64,000 nucleotides of DNA from Candidatus Magnetocorallium paracelense (GCA_029001845.1 JAREWP010000070.1:1-64000), one strand, 5' to 3'. Shown: positions 8,393 through 44,671, counted from the first letter of the stretch. Numbers and translations: made by a program. The notes: a model not told the origin generated them from the sequence alone.

Positions 8393-9970
8393 ATGGACAA
8401 AAGCGATCAGAAAACAATCAGGCGTTTGCAGAACCTCATACAAAAAACAAATGATTTTCCCATATTATCCCATACCATCGATATTGTAACCAAACTGACC
8501 TCTTCAACGAATTTCGATTATCTCTCAATAACCGAAATAACCAACTCTATTCTTAATGATTTCGCATTAACCAATAAAATACTGAAACTGGTCAACACAG
8601 TCTATTACAGGCAGTATGACGGTAAGATCAACACCATATCCAGAGCCGTCATGCTCATAGGCTTCAAGCAATTAAGAAATATTGCGATTTCACTTATGTT
8701 GTTTGAACATTTAAAGGACAAGTCTACTGCCGTCGAACTGAAAGAAAACATTGTACTTTCCTTTATGAGCGCCATTTTTGCTCGCGAGCTTTCCAAAAAC
8801 ATAGATTTTAAAGAATATGAAGAGGCCTACATATGCGCAATGTTTCATAATCTGGGCAAACTTCTTGTCGCATTTTACATCCCCCTGGAAAATAAAAAAA
8901 TCAAAGGTGTAATAACAAACAAAAAGATGAATGAAGAATCGGCAGCCAGAAAAGTACTTGATATTTCTTATCAGGATATTGGTGTCACATTTGCAAATGA
9001 CTGGGGTTTCCCCCCTAAAATAATTAAAAGCATCTATAAACTCCCTCTCACACATGTGCCAAAACCTTTTTCAACCGATGACATTCTCCACAGCATGACA
9101 TGCTTTTCCAATGAACTCTGCCTGCTCATTGCAAACAAAGAATTAAAACCGTCAGAAAGAAACGACGCCATAGACAAGCTGCTGATTCGCTATAAGGACT
9201 GCTTCGATGTATCCGACGATATGGTGACGGATATAATAAAAAAAGTAATGGAAGAGGCCAAAAGATATGAAGAGAGCTTTAATTTGAATTTCTTCGACGC
9301 ATCCGTAAAAAAGCAGGTTTCCAAATTCATGAACGACAAACAATCGGAAAAAAGTAAAAAACAACTCCGCCCGAAGCCTCTCAGGGATGCAGTGCTGAAT
9401 TCGGAGATTGTACAGGTCCTCGACTATCAAAGCACAACACGGGAAAACGGGACCGCCTCATCGCCTGAATCCATACTTGACAGGGGCATACAGGAAGTAA
9501 CGAATATATTAATAGAGGATTATTCCATAAATGAAATACTACGTGTAATTCTTGAAATTATGTACACAGGCATGGGATTTTCCAGAGTACTTATCTGCTT
9601 TAAAAACACAAAGGAGCCCGTTGTGGAGGGGCGTTTCGGATTTGGAAATGAGATACAGGATGTTAAAAAGGTCTTCCTTTTCTATTTAGATAAACCTTCG
9701 GACATATTCAGTCTCTCCCTCTCTAAAGCCGCAGACATTCTTGTGAAAGATATCAATGACGAAAAAGTAAAAAATTACATTCCTGCCTGGTATCGAGAAA
9801 AGGTAAAGGCAGAGACATTTATCGTGTTCCCACTAATGATTGGCAAAAAACCTATAGGCATTATCTATGCCGACAAACCCAAGGCCGGGGAGATAGACCT
9901 CTCTCCAAAATTATTGAGTTACCTGAAAACCCTGCGCAATCAGGCAATCATGGCCCTTAAGAGGGCGTAA
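8393..9970 (+). CDS. HDOD-domain regulator with C-terminal GAF domain
   Basis: 525 aa. Residues about 15-210 form an HDOD domain: SRAVMLIGFKQLRNIAISLM is typical, and the metal site reads MFHNLGK with Asn replacing Asp of the HD pair, so phosphohydrolase activity is unlikely. A helical linker follows. Residues about 360-520 form a GAF domain (NEILRVILEIMYTGMGFSRV ... FIVFPLMIGKKPIGIIYADK). HDOD proteins usually act as scaffolds in signalling and stress control; the GAF part may bind a small ligand. A second, HD-intact HDOD protein is encoded at 60578-61423. Confidence 0.82.
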   Translation: MDKSDQKTIRRLQNLIQKTNDFPILSHTIDIVTKLTSSTNFDYLSITEITNSILNDFALTNKILKLVNTVYYRQYDGKINTISRAVMLIGFKQLRNIAISLMLFEHLKDKSTAVELKENIVLSFMSAIFARELSKNIDFKEYEEAYICAMFHNLGKLLVAFYIPLENKKIKGVITNKKMNEESAARKVLDISYQDIGVTFANDWGFPPKIIKSIYKLPLTHVPKPFSTDDILHSMTCFSNELCLLIANKELKPSERNDAIDKLLIRYKDCFDVSDDMVTDIIKKVMEEAKRYEESFNLNFFDASVKKQVSKFMNDKQSEKSKKQLRPKPLRDAVLNSEIVQVLDYQSTTRENGTASSPESILDRGIQEVTNILIEDYSINEILRVILEIMYTGMGFSRVLICFKNTKEPVVEGRFGFGNEIQDVKKVFLFYLDKPSDIFSLSLSKAADILVKDINDEKVKNYIPAWYREKVKAETFIVFPLMIGKKPIGIIYADKPKAGEIDLSPKLLSYLKTLRNQAIMALKRA

Positions 9971-12031: not shown

Positions 12032-12256
12032 ATGAGTAATGTAATAAAACTTAAACAGATTTTATTATTTATCGCAGGCATACTTATTTTTAACTATCCC
12101 CTGCTCTCTGTATTCAACCGGGATATTACAATTTCAGGCATACCTCTACTCTTTGTTTCGGTTTATCTGTTATGGATACTCCTCATTGTTTTAAGTATAT
12201 TCCTCTGTTTTTCTATTCAATCCTCTCCAAAACAGGATAACAGACAGGAGAAGTAA
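12032..12256 (+). CDS. Small two-helix membrane protein, probable symporter partner
   Basis: 74 aa with two hydrophobic helices (about 8-26 and 37-63) and a short charged tail (SPKQDNRQEK). Its stop codon is directly adjacent to the start of the large symporter-signalling protein. The AGGAG in its last codons serves that gene, so the two are translationally linked. Small membrane proteins (DUF485, DUF3311, DUF4212 types) commonly precede SLC5-family sodium/solute symporters; this one resembles them in size, topology and position but was not matched to a specific family. Likely role: an accessory subunit of the transporter-sensor. Confidence 0.65.
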   Translation: MSNVIKLKQILLFIAGILIFNYPLLSVFNRDITISGIPLLFVSVYLLWILLIVLSIFLCFSIQSSPKQDNRQEK

Positions 12257-15200
12257 TTGTTACAGGGACATTACGTAATAATTACGGGGTTTTTTTACTT
12301 GTTACTACTGTTTTTCGTCGCTTTTTATGCCGAAAAAAGGGCTAAAAGAGGTCGGAGCCTCATAAAGAACCCCTATATTTACTCCCTCTCAATAGCAGTA
12401 TACTGCACAGCCTGGACATTCTACGGGAGTGTGGAAAGAGCGGCAACTTCAGGGCTTAATTTTCTTTCCGTATATATCGGCCCTACAATTATGGCTTTTT
12501 TATGGACCATTGTACTGCGCAAAATAATTCGAATCAGCAAAAACCAAAGAATCACATCTATTGCAGACTTTATTTCATCCCGTTACGGAAAAAGCCTGCT
12601 CTTGGGCGGACTGGTTACTATTATTTCGCTGGTAGGAATAATGCCTTACATCTCTTTGCAACTGAAAGCGGTAGCAGTCAGTCTGAATGTGCTCATGCAG
12701 TATCCTGACATAAAAACGATTACGACAGCAGCCCCTATTCTGTCTGACTCGGCCTTTTATGTTGCAGGCGTCATGGCCCTGTTTACGATACTATTCGGCA
12801 CACGTTATCTGGACGCTTTTGAAAGACATGAAGGAATGGTAGCGGCTGTTGCTTTTGAATCTCTGGTGAAACTTGTCGCATTTCTGCTTGTAGGCTTATC
12901 TGTCACTTACGGAATATACAACGGTTTTGGCGATATTTTTAACAAGGCGAAATCTGTCCCTCATTTGCAACAACTTTTCACCTTTAAGAGTGGTGATTTC
13001 AACGACTGGTTCTGGATAATTTTTATGTCCTCTATGGCGATTATGTTTCTTCCGAGACAATTTCAGGTGATGGTTGTCGAAAATACAGATGAGAACCATG
13101 TGGAAAAGGCGACGTGGATATTTCCATTTTATATACTTCTAATCAACTTATTTGTTTTACCCATAGCATTTGGGGGCATGCTTCATTTCTCCGACGGCAG
13201 CGTCCGGCCGGACACATTTGTACTCACCCTGCCGATGTCTCGTCAGTGGGAGTTCATAACCCTTGTCGCCTTTATCGGTGGTCTTTCTGCCGCGACAAGC
13301 ATGGTTATGGTAACGACAATATCCATTAGTACGATGATAAGCAACAATCTGATCTTACCTTTTTTAATGCAGGTCCCTTTTATCGATATAAAGGGTAAAA
13401 AGGAGATGAACAGGTTTACCCTGAGAATCAGACGCATTTCAATTATCGCAATTATGCTTTTAGGTTATCTGAGTTTTCGTCTGATAGGAGAATCGTATGC
13501 ACTTGTTACAATCGGACTCATGTCCTTTGCCGCGGCTGCTCAGTTTGCACCATCCATTATCGGCGGAATATTCTGGAAACAGGGAAACAAGCTTGGCGCA
13601 CTGGTCGGGCTGGCAGGCGGATTCGCGCTCTGGCTTTACACAATGTTTCTTCCTGCATTGGCCAAATCCGGTTGGCTGCCTGCAAGTTTTATCGAATCAG
13701 GCCCTTTCGGAATCACCCTGCTGAATCCCTACAGCTTATTCGGGGTCAAAGGAATGAGCTGGATATCTCACGGCATGTTCTGGAGTATATTAGTCAATCT
13801 TGGCGCCTATATAACAATTTCCGTGTTTACACGGCATGGAAGTACTTTGGAACAAACACAGGCCGCCCTCTTTACAGGAGGTTTTCAACATGAAACCAAA
13901 GAAGCGTCCTGGAGCGGTGATTACTCGCTGAACGATCTGCAAAAACTTTTGACTCGTTTTATGGGCCAAAGGGAAATGGAAAAAGCCTTTGCAGAGTATA
14001 CAAATATAAATAATATTCCCTTGCATGCCGACCCGGAACTTGCCGGTTACATGGAAAAACGTCTGGCAGGCGCCATAGGCACATCATCGGCGAGAATCAT
14101 GATTTCATCCATAGTGAGCGAATCCGTCGTGGGAATGGAAGAGATCATAAAAGCGCTTGATGACGAGTTAATGGAGAGCCGTCGTTTAAAAGAAGAGATA
14201 CATAAACGCAAAGCCGCCGAAGAACAACTGCTTAGTCAGACCAATAAGCTTACCAGATTGAAGCTCCGCCATGAATTAATTTTAAACTCAGCCGGCGACG
14301 GCATTTACGGAGTGGATTTGGAAGGACGCACAACCTTTATAAATCCCGCAGCCGTTAAACTGATAGGGTGGGGTTCCGAAGATATGATCGGTAAATTGCA
14401 GCACGATGTAATACATCACACGCGACCTGACGGTTCTGTCTATCCTGCTGAGGAGTGTCCTGTTTACAGGACTTTTAAAGAAGATAAGGCCTTTCATGTA
14501 GATGACGAAGTGTTCTGGAGAAAGGACAGAACGAGTTTTCCCGTTGAATATGTAAGCACCCCCATGCATGACGATAAGGAGCAATTAGTCGGAGCAGTTG
14601 TCGTATTTAAAGATATAAGCGAACGAAAAGAGATGGAGCAGCGTCTTTGCGAGCTGGCCCATTATGACATCCTGACGGGACTCCCCAACAGAATGCTTTT
14701 TTATGAAATGCTCGATCAGGCAATTGAGATGGCCGGGAGGAACGGTCTTATTTTAGGGATCATGTTTATAGACCTGGACAGATTTAAATATATAAACGAC
14801 ACGCTGGGTCATGATACAGGGGATTTGCTGTTAAAAGAAGTGGGGGCAAGATTTGAAGAAATCCTGCGTCAATCCGATACAGTCGCAAGAAATTCATTGG
14901 CCCGTATCGGAGGCGATGAGTTCCTGATACTTCTCCACAATCTGGTTAAAGCGCAAAACGCAGCTGTCGTAGCAAAGAAAATCATTTCCTCCTTAATAAA
15001 ACCTTTTAATATAAAGGGCAATGAGTGCTTTATCGGCGCCAGCGTGGGAGTCAGCATATATCCTTTTGACGGTGAAACCCCGGAGGTTCTTATAAAACAT
15101 GCCGATTCCGCCATGTATCAGGCAAAATATGCATCAGGCAACTCCTATCAATTCTATTCAGAGGAAATAGAAACAGCAGCATGTGAGCGTTTAGCGATTG

Positions 15201-15982
15201 AAAACGATTTACGGCACGCCATAGACAAAAATGAATTCATACTCTATTACCAACCTGTTGTAGATGTCATGACCGGCAAAACAATAAGCGCTGAGGCTCT
15301 GATCCGTTGGAAAAGAAATGGAGAAATCGTCCCACCCGATGTATTCATCCCTGTGGCAGAGGAGACAGGACTAATCCTTTACATAGGAGAGTGGGTGCTG
15401 AAACAGGCATGTCATGATATCAGGAAGTGGCGCGAAGAGGGGTTTCTTGAAATACATGTTGCAGTAAATATGTCTATGTGTCAGTTTGGCAGGCAGAAAA
15501 ACCTTGTGGAAGGAATAGCTCAAATCATATTCGAGGCCGACATAAAACCTGAATACCTTGAACTGGAAATCACCGAGTCAGCCTGTATGGAAAATATAAC
15601 ATCCCTCATTCCCATACTGAGAGAATTAAATTCTACGGGAATAAAACTATCGATAGACGATTTCGGAACAGGTTACTCATCTCTGAGCTACCTCAAATAT
15701 CTTCCCATAGGTAAATTAAAAATTGACCGATCTTTCATAAAAGATATCATTGAAGGCGAAGACGATCAGGCCATAGTAAAGGCAATGACCGGTATGGCGC
15801 ATACACTTGGGCTAAAAGCTGTGGCCGAAGGAGTCGAGACATTGGATCACTTGGAAATTTCACGTTCTCTGGGTTGTGATTATGTGCAGGGTTACTTATT
15901 CAGCAAACCTGTACCTGAGGCAGAATTTTTAACATATCTCAGAGATGAAGTAGGGGCTGTTAATTCAATACCATTAACTTAA
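12257..15982 (+). CDS. Na+/solute symporter (SLC5)-STAC-PAS-GGDEF-EAL fusion
   Basis: 1241 aa. Residues 1-~520 are a multi-helix sodium/solute symporter domain (SIAVYCTAWTFYGSVERA; FLPRQFQVMVVENTD; ALVTIGLMSFAAAAQFAPSI). About 550-635 resembles the STAC linker domain of CbrA-type sensors (LNDLQKLLTRFMGQREMEKA, MEKRLAGAIGTSSARIMISS). PAS is about 675-800, GGDEF about 805-975 with an intact GGDEF motif near 885, and EAL about 985-1235. EAL catalytic motifs look intact: AEALIRW, LEITESA, IDDFGTGYSSLSYL, KIDRSFI, AEGVET. It may both make and degrade cyclic-di-GMP in response to a transported or sensed solute. TTG start with AGGAG six bases upstream. The last residues, SIPLT, come from MITE copy B. 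Confidence 0.9.
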   Translation: MLQGHYVIITGFFYLLLLFFVAFYAEKRAKRGRSLIKNPYIYSLSIAVYCTAWTFYGSVERAATSGLNFLSVYIGPTIMAFLWTIVLRKIIRISKNQRITSIADFISSRYGKSLLLGGLVTIISLVGIMPYISLQLKAVAVSLNVLMQYPDIKTITTAAPILSDSAFYVAGVMALFTILFGTRYLDAFERHEGMVAAVAFESLVKLVAFLLVGLSVTYGIYNGFGDIFNKAKSVPHLQQLFTFKSGDFNDWFWIIFMSSMAIMFLPRQFQVMVVENTDENHVEKATWIFPFYILLINLFVLPIAFGGMLHFSDGSVRPDTFVLTLPMSRQWEFITLVAFIGGLSAATSMVMVTTISISTMISNNLILPFLMQVPFIDIKGKKEMNRFTLRIRRISIIAIMLLGYLSFRLIGESYALVTIGLMSFAAAAQFAPSIIGGIFWKQGNKLGALVGLAGGFALWLYTMFLPALAKSGWLPASFIESGPFGITLLNPYSLFGVKGMSWISHGMFWSILVNLGAYITISVFTRHGSTLEQTQAALFTGGFQHETKEASWSGDYSLNDLQKLLTRFMGQREMEKAFAEYTNINNIPLHADPELAGYMEKRLAGAIGTSSARIMISSIVSESVVGMEEIIKALDDELMESRRLKEEIHKRKAAEEQLLSQTNKLTRLKLRHELILNSAGDGIYGVDLEGRTTFINPAAVKLIGWGSEDMIGKLQHDVIHHTRPDGSVYPAEECPVYRTFKEDKAFHVDDEVFWRKDRTSFPVEYVSTPMHDDKEQLVGAVVVFKDISERKEMEQRLCELAHYDILTGLPNRMLFYEMLDQAIEMAGRNGLILGIMFIDLDRFKYINDTLGHDTGDLLLKEVGARFEEILRQSDTVARNSLARIGGDEFLILLHNLVKAQNAAVVAKKIISSLIKPFNIKGNECFIGASVGVSIYPFDGETPEVLIKHADSAMYQAKYASGNSYQFYSEEIETAACERLAIENDLRHAIDKNEFILYYQPVVDVMTGKTISAEALIRWKRNGEIVPPDVFIPVAEETGLILYIGEWVLKQACHDIRKWREEGFLEIHVAVNMSMCQFGRQKNLVEGIAQIIFEADIKPEYLELEITESACMENITSLIPILRELNSTGIKLSIDDFGTGYSSLSYLKYLPIGKLKIDRSFIKDIIEGEDDQAIVKAMTGMAHTLGLKAVAEGVETLDHLEISRSLGCDYVQGYLFSKPVPEAEFLTYLRDEVGAVNSIPLT

Positions 15983-16099
15983 GGGGTGAAGCACCTTCCG
16001 ACGTAAGCGGGTCATGTTTGAGAAGGCGCAGCGAAGCGAAGCCTTCGAGTTTAGCCGGTGAAGGCGGAAGGTGCTTTGCTCCTTAAGTTAATGACATTG
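15967..16099 (+). mobile_element. MITE family 1, copy B (overlaps the end of the GGDEF-EAL gene)
   Basis: 133 bp, from CAATACC to GACATTG. Both ends carry CATTAACTTAAGG and AAGCACCTTCCG in inverted orientation. It is flanked by the perfect 10-bp direct repeat GCTGTTAATT (15957-15966 and 16100-16109). Removing the element and one repeat restores a reading GTT AAT TGA, i.e. an ancestral stop codon, so the insertion replaced the natural end of the upstream protein. Confidence 0.93.
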
Positions 16100-16152
16100 G
16101 CTGTTAATTGACGAGTAATATGTTTGGTTTACCTGTGGCTCAACCCGGAAAA

Positions 16153-17445
16153 TTATGAAAATACTCTCTTAAACAAAAGGTCGATATTTTTCAGATAATC
16201 GTTTATATCAAAAATGACGTCAATCTCATCGGAAGTCAGATGTTTCGTAACATCTGGGTCAGACATTAATAATGACTTAAAAGCCACTCCCCTTTCCCAA
16301 CTCTCCATTGCATTCCTTTGTGTAATCGCATAGGCGTCCTCTCTTGACAATCCTTTTTCGGTGAGTCCGGTAAGGACTTTTTGAGAATAAAAGAGTCCGT
16401 GACTTCTTTCCAAATTCACTTTCATATTCTCCGGATAAACTCGAAGCGACGCCAGTATCCCTTTCAATCTGTTGAGCATATAATCTGTTAATATGGTGCT
16501 GTCAGGCACAATGACCCTCTCCACAGAGGAATGGCTGATATCTCTCTCATGCCAGAGAGCAATATTTTCCAGCGCGGCCAGGGAATTCGATCTTACGACT
16601 CTGGCCAGACCGGACAAATTTTCGCAACCGATGGGATTTCTTTTATGAGGCATTGCAGAGGAGCCTTTCTGACCTTTGGAAAAAGGTTCTTCCGCTTCAC
16701 GCACTTCCGTCCTCTGTAAATGTCTGATCTCCACAGAAATACGCTCAATAGAGCCGCCCAGTACGGCCAGAGCAGTCATATATTCGGCATGTCTGTCTCG
16801 TTGGACAATTTGAGTTGAAACCGGCTCCGCCTTTAAACCGAGTTTTTCACAAACCTTATCTTCCATTTCAGGGGGAACGATGGAAAAGGTCCCCACTGCA
16901 CCGGAAAGCTTGCCTACATTTATAGTCTCCCTGGCCCGCTGTACTCTGTCAAGATTCCTCTTCATCTCTTCATACCAAAGAGCGAATTTCAAACCAAAAG
17001 TCATCGGCTCGGCATGAACACCGTGACTCCTCCCGATGCAGGGAACATCTTTGTATTTGAAGGCCTGCTTCTTTAAAACATCCATAAGTTCCTGAATATC
17101 CCCGATAATGATATCGGCAGCGTCTCTCATAAGAAGGGCCATGGCTGTATCTGTTACATCGGAAGAGGTAAGCCCTTTATGGATATATCTCGATTCACTG
17201 CCGGTAAATTCGGCGACTGACGTTAAAAACGCGATCACATCATGTTTTACGGTTGCCTCTATTTCGTCTATCCTTTTCACATCAAAAGAGGCCCTCTCTT
17301 TTATAATATTCAGAGCGTCCAAAGGAATTTCCCCAAGCTCCGCCCATGCTTCACAGGCAGCGATTTCCACATCGAGCCATTTACGAAATTTCGCTTCAAG
17401 ACTCCAAAGTGCGCCCATCTCTTTTCTTGTATATCTCTCTATCAT
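16153..17445 (-). CDS. purB: Adenylosuccinate lyase PurB
   Basis: 430 aa, standard for the bacterial short PurB. Family signature SSAMPHKRNPIGCENLSGLA is present, as are SRYIHKGLTSSDVTDTAMAL (catalytic TSSD region) and GRSHGVHAEPMTFGLKFALW. The enzyme acts twice in purine synthesis, splitting SAICAR and adenylosuccinate with fumarate release. TAAGGAG lies a few bases before the ATG. It is not linked to purD (9 kb away). Confidence 0.95.
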   Translation of the reverse strand: MIERYTRKEMGALWSLEAKFRKWLDVEIAACEAWAELGEIPLDALNIIKERASFDVKRIDEIEATVKHDVIAFLTSVAEFTGSESRYIHKGLTSSDVTDTAMALLMRDAADIIIGDIQELMDVLKKQAFKYKDVPCIGRSHGVHAEPMTFGLKFALWYEEMKRNLDRVQRARETINVGKLSGAVGTFSIVPPEMEDKVCEKLGLKAEPVSTQIVQRDRHAEYMTALAVLGGSIERISVEIRHLQRTEVREAEEPFSKGQKGSSAMPHKRNPIGCENLSGLARVVRSNSLAALENIALWHERDISHSSVERVIVPDSTILTDYMLNRLKGILASLRVYPENMKVNLERSHGLFYSQKVLTGLTEKGLSREDAYAITQRNAMESWERGVAFKSLLMSDPDVTKHLTSDEIDVIFDINDYLKNIDLLFKRVFS

Positions 17446-17507
17446 GGTAACTCCTTATTTATAAGTATTGGTCAAATGTAATTTCTGTGGTAATTATATA
17501 TTCTTAT

Positions 17508-44293: not shown

Positions 44294-44671
44294 CTACATA
44301 GATGTGAATTGAATAATTCTATTAATCATTTCTATATGATTTACTTCCAGTTCCAAAAACTCAAAACCTATTCGGGTCATGGTAATGCTCATGGTCTGAT
44401 TGTTTTTAGCGATAGCTTTTAAACTCAGGCATCCATTACTTTCCAAGCCGTTTATTAAATTTAAATCGACAACTATCTCTACTTCTTTTAAAACGGAAAT
44501 GGAAAATCTGCTTTTAATTCCACAACCCTTTTCGCTGAGATCTATCAACATACCCGGGAGACCTTCGGCAGTATTGTATAAACCCGATATGTTTACGGAA
44601 TCTTTGGTTTTTATTGTTACAGGTATATTTATCGGACATCTTTCAGCATTTCTAACAACCCATCTGCTCAT
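44294..44671 (-). CDS. PilZ-domain protein (cyclic-di-GMP receptor)
   Basis: 125 aa single PilZ domain. Both binding motifs are present: RxxxR in VVRNAERCPINIPV and (D/N)xSxxG in MLIDLSEKGCGI. Thus it probably binds cyclic-di-GMP, made or degraded by proteins such as the GGDEF-EAL fusion at 12257. AAAGGAG precedes the ATG. Target process is unknown; pili and exopolysaccharide genes are encoded in the same window. Confidence 0.85.
   Translation of the reverse strand: MSRWVVRNAERCPINIPVTIKTKDSVNISGLYNTAEGLPGMLIDLSEKGCGIKSRFSISVLKEVEIVVDLNLINGLESNGCLSLKAIAKNNQTMSITMTRIGFEFLELEVNHIEMINRIIQFTSM

Follow-up and report, generated by a model that had tools for sequence, protein, structure and literature searches.

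A 64,000-nucleotide (nt) stretch of DNA from Candidatus Magnetocorallium paracelense (GCA_029001845.1, JAREWP010000070.1:1-64000; hereafter the window) carries, at positions 12,032 to 15,982, a gene pair in which a transporter-like sensor of the SLC5-STAC type is joined to GGDEF and EAL domains, the enzymatic modules for synthesis and breakdown of cyclic di-GMP (c-di-GMP). Sequence reading finds both frames open, one of 74 codons (12032-12256) and one of 1241 codons (12257-15982), and the two lie in a single reading frame, the TAA of the first being followed directly by the TTG start of the second. An initial annotation had proposed these coordinates, a coupled gene for a two-helix protein, and the order of domains in the large protein, all of which are borne out here (Table 1). 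From the AGGAG site inside the smaller gene we infer that its translation is coupled to that of the larger one; translational coupling of cbrX and cbrA has been demonstrated in Pseudomonas putida (PMC6591292).

Table 1. Features of the gene pair and of one more distant gene, with positions counted from the first letter of the window
Feature	Position	Strand	Basis or remark
74-aa CbrX-family two-helix membrane protein, putative transceptor partner	12032-12256	+	Family profile, 10ED_X match, model
AGGAG, Shine-Dalgarno-like site	12246-12250	+	Within 3' end of 74-aa gene, 6 nt 5' of TTG
SLC5 domain, 13 TM segments (residues 1-524)	12257-13828	+	10ED alignment, AlphaFold2 model, Foldseek
K205 codon, counterpart of CbrA K196 (Na2 site)	12869-12871	+	Same residue in all 65 SLC5-STAC rows aligned
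STAC four-helix bundle (residues about 558-619)	13928-14113	+	10ED alignment to residue 619; four helices in model
Long signalling helix, STAC to PAS (residues 627-677)	14135-14287	+	Predicted models
PAS domain (residues 673-787)	14273-14617	+	Pfam, 2.5e-14
GGDEF domain (residues 801-962), GGDEF motif 885-889	14657-15142	+	Pfam, 2.9e-45
I-site RQSD (871-874), 5-residue insertion within TVARNSLARI, then GGDEF	14867-14923	+	Comparison with MorA 4RNH and paralogue
EAL domain (residues 983-1218); EAL 1013, DDFGTG, KID and EGVE present	15203-15910	+	Pfam, 1.1e-75; alignment
PilZ-domain protein, possible but unspecific c-di-GMP receptor	44297-44671	-	Pfam PilZ, 5.8e-9

In Pfam searches of the 1241-residue protein, the SSF family stayed below threshold (17.1 bits versus 22.8) and no STAC match was returned. 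Despite this weak signal, the SLC5-STAC identity of the front half is secure, because alignment, model, and fold comparison agree. A phmmer search of residues 1-660 against the PDB gave the sensor kinase CbrA (10ED chain A) as its sole match, over residues 8-619 (E = 1.2e-70). An AlphaFold2 model of the 74-residue protein together with SLC5-STAC, computed as one chain read through the single stop so that the link between the two is artificial, reached a predicted local distance difference test score (pLDDT) of 89 and a predicted template modelling score (pTM) of 0.87, and we read its helix list as a hairpin followed by 13 transmembrane (TM) segments, then the four helices of a STAC bundle, and finally a long helix leading out. 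Foldseek comparison of the modelled front half returned SGLT2, NIS, SMCT1, and CHT1.

One of the nearest characterized systems is CbrA-CbrX of P. putida (SLC5-STAC-PAS-DHp-CA; 10ED), which has in common with the window pair a 13-TM SLC5 domain, a lysine at the Na2 site, STAC, PAS, and a coupled upstream hairpin gene. In CbrA this lysine, K196, occupies the Na2 site, consistent with proton-driven histidine uptake (PMC13022988). Its counterpart K205 is retained, as it is in 65 of 65 aligned SLC5-STAC rows, so that the front end, which had been annotated as a symporter, is probably proton-coupled. Pocket residues Y51, W55, F71, Y75, and F406 of CbrA are retained as Y49, W53, F69, Y73, and F424, whereas T51, T54, and I255 stand where CbrA has S53, A56, and F248. 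The replacements T51 and T54 are common to all 65 rows, so that nothing sets the pocket of the c-di-GMP version apart: the output changed and the input did not. Besides these pocket residues, the window pair differs from CbrA-CbrX in its output, GGDEF-EAL instead of a histidine kinase, and in having no CbrB-like regulator adjoining it. The hybrid kinases CrbS/MxtR and RpuS (acetate, pyruvate) are likewise SLC5-STAC carbon-source sensors but deliver their output through a kinase and a REC domain. Two SLC5-STAC kinases from genomes of the same family as the window (L101, L102) contain extra SLC5 sequence: the segments matching SLC5 residues 1-148 and 172-618 are separated by about 43 residues more than in the window protein.

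The DHp and CA domains of a histidine kinase are not present in the window protein, and GGDEF and EAL domains stand in their place. This tail is homologous to PAS-GGDEF-EAL enzymes of the MorA, RbdA, and DosP type (MorA 4RNH, E = 8.5e-117; DosP, 4e-66), which differ in their input domains and have no transporter. Both catalytic domains had been described as intact-looking. For EAL this holds, as its motifs and the K residue of EAL phosphodiesterases are present and conserved relative to MorA 4RNH. The GGDEF motif is also intact and is accompanied by DLDRFKYIND and GHDTGD, which contain the GTP/metal residues, but the stretch running from RQSD through TVARNSLARI to GGDEF is 5 residues longer than in MorA 4RNH, the own-genome paralogue, and other GGDEF domains read from the genome. 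This insertion shifts the RxxD inhibitory site out of place and may weaken synthesis or product control, and because it lies beside the I-site we favour a putative net output that is perhaps mainly phosphodiesterase. The best model of residues 627-1241, built on a shallow alignment, contains a 50-residue signalling helix followed by PAS, GGDEF, and EAL folds (pLDDT 83, pTM 0.54; the remaining four models were clearly poorer).

The window protein is a mosaic, because its front is nearest to kinases of SAR324 and its PAS-GGDEF-EAL part is nearest to paralogues in its own genome and family. Its SLC5 and STAC domains are 61% and 42-44% identical to those of two SAR324 kinases (L002, L208), to which the PAS domain is only 25-27% identical. 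The PAS, GGDEF, and EAL domains, on the other hand, are 55, 61, and 56% identical to those of a PAS-GGDEF-EAL protein of the same genome (C98; REC-REC-GAF-type, the REC and GAF domains being assigned by sequence reading) and 62, 54, and 57% identical to those of a PAS-GGDEF-EAL protein of a family relative. These per-domain identities place the junction between STAC and PAS, at about residues 640-666. That such a fusion might be an artefact of assembly or gene prediction has to be considered, given that the genome is a draft of 103 contigs and that a second strain with the same gene was not found. However, the gene is a single uninterrupted frame within a 122-kb contig, GC content is similar in both halves (43.9 and 43.3%), the tail is 55-61% identical to the resident paralogue and hence not a near-identical copy, and a comparable fusion is found on a plasmid whose sequence is recorded as complete. 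We therefore regard an artefact as very improbable.

To place this architecture, we collected SLC5-STAC frames from the best 80 of 585 confirmed relatives in a scan of 84,980 genomes, from two sets of 60 and 396 genomes covering the window's relatives and its phylum, from 369 genomes of a gammaproteobacterial class, from scans of 230, 395, and 52 genomes with the full-length query, and from 67 plasmid records, three of which were read. Among 259 distinct frames, 249 are histidine kinases, in agreement with the initial annotation that SLC5-STAC sensors usually end in one; 8 are cut or short; and 2 are GGDEF-EAL proteins (2/251 classifiable). Because frames were retrieved by front-half similarity from limited sampling, this is a rate within relatives rather than a global count, and because the full-length-query scans scored no more than two candidates in each genome of the large sets, more distant fusions may have escaped. 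The architecture is thus rare but not unheard-of: STAC-linked SLC5 domains with GGDEF or diguanylate cyclase outputs have already been stated to occur (PMC5715377, PMC7096432), so that it is known in outline, and we found no study of any SLC5-STAC-GGDEF protein in the open-access papers searched. To this we add one concrete mosaic example, a second fusion, an estimate of how rare such proteins are among close relatives, and evidence of how widespread and constrained the CbrX-type partner is.

The second case, AZKH_RS23785, is encoded on plasmid pAZKH of Azoarcus sp. KH32C. Like the window protein it combines SLC5-STAC with GGDEF-EAL and has a CbrX-like upstream gene (66 residues); unlike it, it is without PAS, its GGDEF motif is degenerate (PGESF), and its GGDEF domain is just 35% identical. 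In a tree of 112 rows the window protein is sister to the two SAR324 kinases, with a Shimodaira-Hasegawa-like approximate likelihood ratio test (SH-aLRT) support of 99, and the Azoarcus protein branches elsewhere, so that its fusion probably arose independently. The starred branches of this tree force two changes, and an approximately unbiased (AU) test of a single clade for both GGDEF-EAL proteins was borderline (p = 0.052). Two independent replacements of a kinase by GGDEF-EAL are the better reading, which we favour without regarding it as proven.

The 74-residue protein had been annotated as a tiny two-helix protein coupled to the large one, and this stands; it is no oddity of this locus, however, and belongs to the CbrX family of partners. 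AlphaFold2 models it as a helix hairpin (helices 2-19 and 39-59, pLDDT about 90). A PDB search with this single sequence gave no match, and a family profile built from open reading frames (ORFs) upstream of SLC5-STAC genes has CbrX (10ED chain X) as its top PDB match, over the full length (E = 0.0014; next match 0.09), which places the protein in the CbrX family by a homology that is modest at the level of sequence. With a profile from seven such upstream ORFs, a partner was found to adjoin 179 of the 197 distinct SLC5-STAC frames whose upstream DNA was examined, in many phyla and within 20 nt in 147 cases. Of 10141 control ORFs drawn from this DNA the profile matched just one, and that ORF lies next to a broken SLC5-STAC frame. 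Most frames that lack a partner are long kinases from the gammaproteobacterial sample (L195-L204); kinases of this sort in that sample fall outside the window's clade and are presumably CrbS. In the Nitrospira sp. contig L017 (minus strand, about 14300-17500), we noticed a second CbrA-like SLC5-STAC kinase in the locus with a CbrX-like partner of its own (MRQIREF...), the closest in look to CbrX.

Whether the identity of this peptide matters has been disputed. A 2019 study of cbrX used a frame-altered CbrX of equal length and judged peptide identity improbable to matter (PMC6591292), which would make the small ORF a mere translation coupler for the large gene, and growth on histidine does not require CbrX (PMC13022988). 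Yet CbrX co-purifies with CbrA in 10ED as a hairpin packed beside TM3 and TM8 (PMC13022988), and the partner sequence is conserved from phylum to phylum: an alignment of 34 sequences has invariant P and W, the profile matches almost nothing else among the control ORFs, and there is purifying selection (median ratio of nonsynonymous to synonymous substitution rates, dN/dS, of 0.12 over 60 close pairs, not all independent). This conservation speaks against an unimportant identity as a general rule, and we consider the coupler explanation improbable for the 74-residue ORF. In a coevolution analysis of 172 partner-SLC5 pairs (effective number 68), the top scores were similar to those of shuffled pairings and lay outside TM3/TM8. 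Because the window and Azoarcus proteins keep the partner without a kinase, it would appear to serve the transporter end.

We consider the best explanation, with a probability of roughly 60%, to be that the window protein is a one-component, ligand-controlled c-di-GMP transceptor. The architecture of domains, the families to which the proteins belong, the mosaic origin, and the conservation of the partner are results of the analysis; ligand binding, the direction of the signal, catalysis, and dominance of EAL are what we infer in this proposal. The SLC5 domain with its membrane-bound CbrX-like hairpin would bind a small organic solute, acetate or another short-chain carboxylate being possible candidates, and would perhaps also import it, driven by protons. 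The STAC bundle docked beneath would read the conformation of SLC5 and relay it along the long helix to PAS, which may take a second, cytoplasmic input, and the relayed signal would set the balance of the tandem GGDEF-EAL enzyme. Net output would probably be c-di-GMP breakdown, with GGDEF acting as a weaker cyclase or a GTP-binding regulator. As to origin, a resident PAS-GGDEF-EAL module took over the position of the kinase in an SLC5-STAC sensor, with the switch falling between STAC and PAS. This proposal is supported by the homologous CbrA, in which STAC docks below the transporter and CbrX is bound (PMC13022988), as well as by the four-helix STAC and continuous signalling helix of the models. 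The mosaic identities, the place beside the SAR324 kinases in the tree, the conserved EAL motifs, the hint of acetate, and the large c-di-GMP network of the genome also speak for it.

Several observations weigh against it. The insertion in GGDEF could disable the cyclase or change how its product controls it, no gene adjoining the window pair points to a ligand, and the hint of acetate discussed below comes from kinase relatives of 45-58% identity. Further, the SLC5 domain of CbrA is not required for signalling, and L-histidine left the kinase activities unchanged in vitro (PMC7096432), so that the front of the window protein may only modulate. These properties of CbrA, together with the PAS domain being its suspected input (PMC7096432, PMC7918813), give some weight to another explanation, in which SLC5 is mainly a membrane anchor or an independent transporter, PAS senses a cytoplasmic signal, and GGDEF-EAL activity is independent of transport; the window PAS arrived with the GGDEF-EAL module and may therefore keep its old input. 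Against this, the conserved pocket residues and K205 are retained as in the kinase relatives, and both STAC and the partner gene were kept after the swap, as expected if coupling of front and output matters. We regard this explanation as unlikely but deserving serious attention.

Flow in the reverse direction, with GGDEF-EAL as a receptor of c-di-GMP or GTP that gates solute uptake by SLC5, would fit the contact between STAC and the transporter's cytoplasmic vestibule in CbrA, which makes two-way traffic possible (PMC13022988). The unusual insertion in GGDEF could also be seen in this light. However, the catalytic motifs of EAL and GGDEF look intact, in contrast to those of the dedicated receptors LapD and FimX, and every classified relative has an enzymatic output, which makes a pure receptor distinctly improbable. 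Beyond the transceptor proposal, one may speculate that SLC5-STAC, together with an obligate subunit of CbrX type, is an input cassette that can be plugged into unrelated outputs, and that coupling in the window protein runs both ways, with c-di-GMP state gating uptake, although we think it rather doubtful.

For the ligand of the proposed transceptor, the loci of the 80 best relatives give some guidance. When one representative of each neighbour gene cluster was identified by Pfam, a receiver-domain protein was found at 65 loci, a DUF294 nucleotidyltransferase at 54, acetyl-CoA synthetase at 19, and an SSF transporter at 9. With these neighbours, and with the role of the related CrbS systems in acetate utilization (PMC5715377, PMC9100948), the first candidate is perhaps acetate or a comparable carboxylate, at somewhat less than even odds. 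The DUF294 protein is frequent at SLC5-STAC kinase loci (54/80; L031, L053, and 52 others). The window pair itself is flanked 5' by a radical SAM/SPASM gene and 3' by an adenylosuccinate lyase gene on the opposite strand; around the locus, an Rfam search gave no match, and promoter and terminator scans stayed at about chance level. A possible further signalling protein lies nearby at 8393-9970, with an HDOD domain and a C-terminal part that is GAF-like by eye.

The resident c-di-GMP network is large, with 58 GGDEF, 18 EAL, and 15 PilZ matches across the genome. The PilZ gene that the initial annotation had pointed to as a receptor elsewhere in the window is present, but it lies 28 kb away and is one of those 15 matches; given the size of the network, nothing singles it out as the receptor. 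Another GGDEF-EAL frame of the same genome (L229, G000:C63:6158-6628) is broken by one TGA, which may reflect the decay of a paralogue or an error in sequencing.

How transporter-like domains signal through STAC is an open question, partly because CbrA gave no histidine response in vitro. Here the same front end is naturally joined to an enzymatic c-di-GMP output, which makes the question approachable within a single protein by means of live c-di-GMP biosensors. Our census is relevant, too, to the dispute over CbrX, held to be a mere translation coupler in 2019 and bound to CbrA according to a 2026 preprint: on the basis of cross-phylum conservation, purifying selection, and retention after a change of output, we argue that CbrX-type proteins would be true subunits acting on the transporter end of these sensors.

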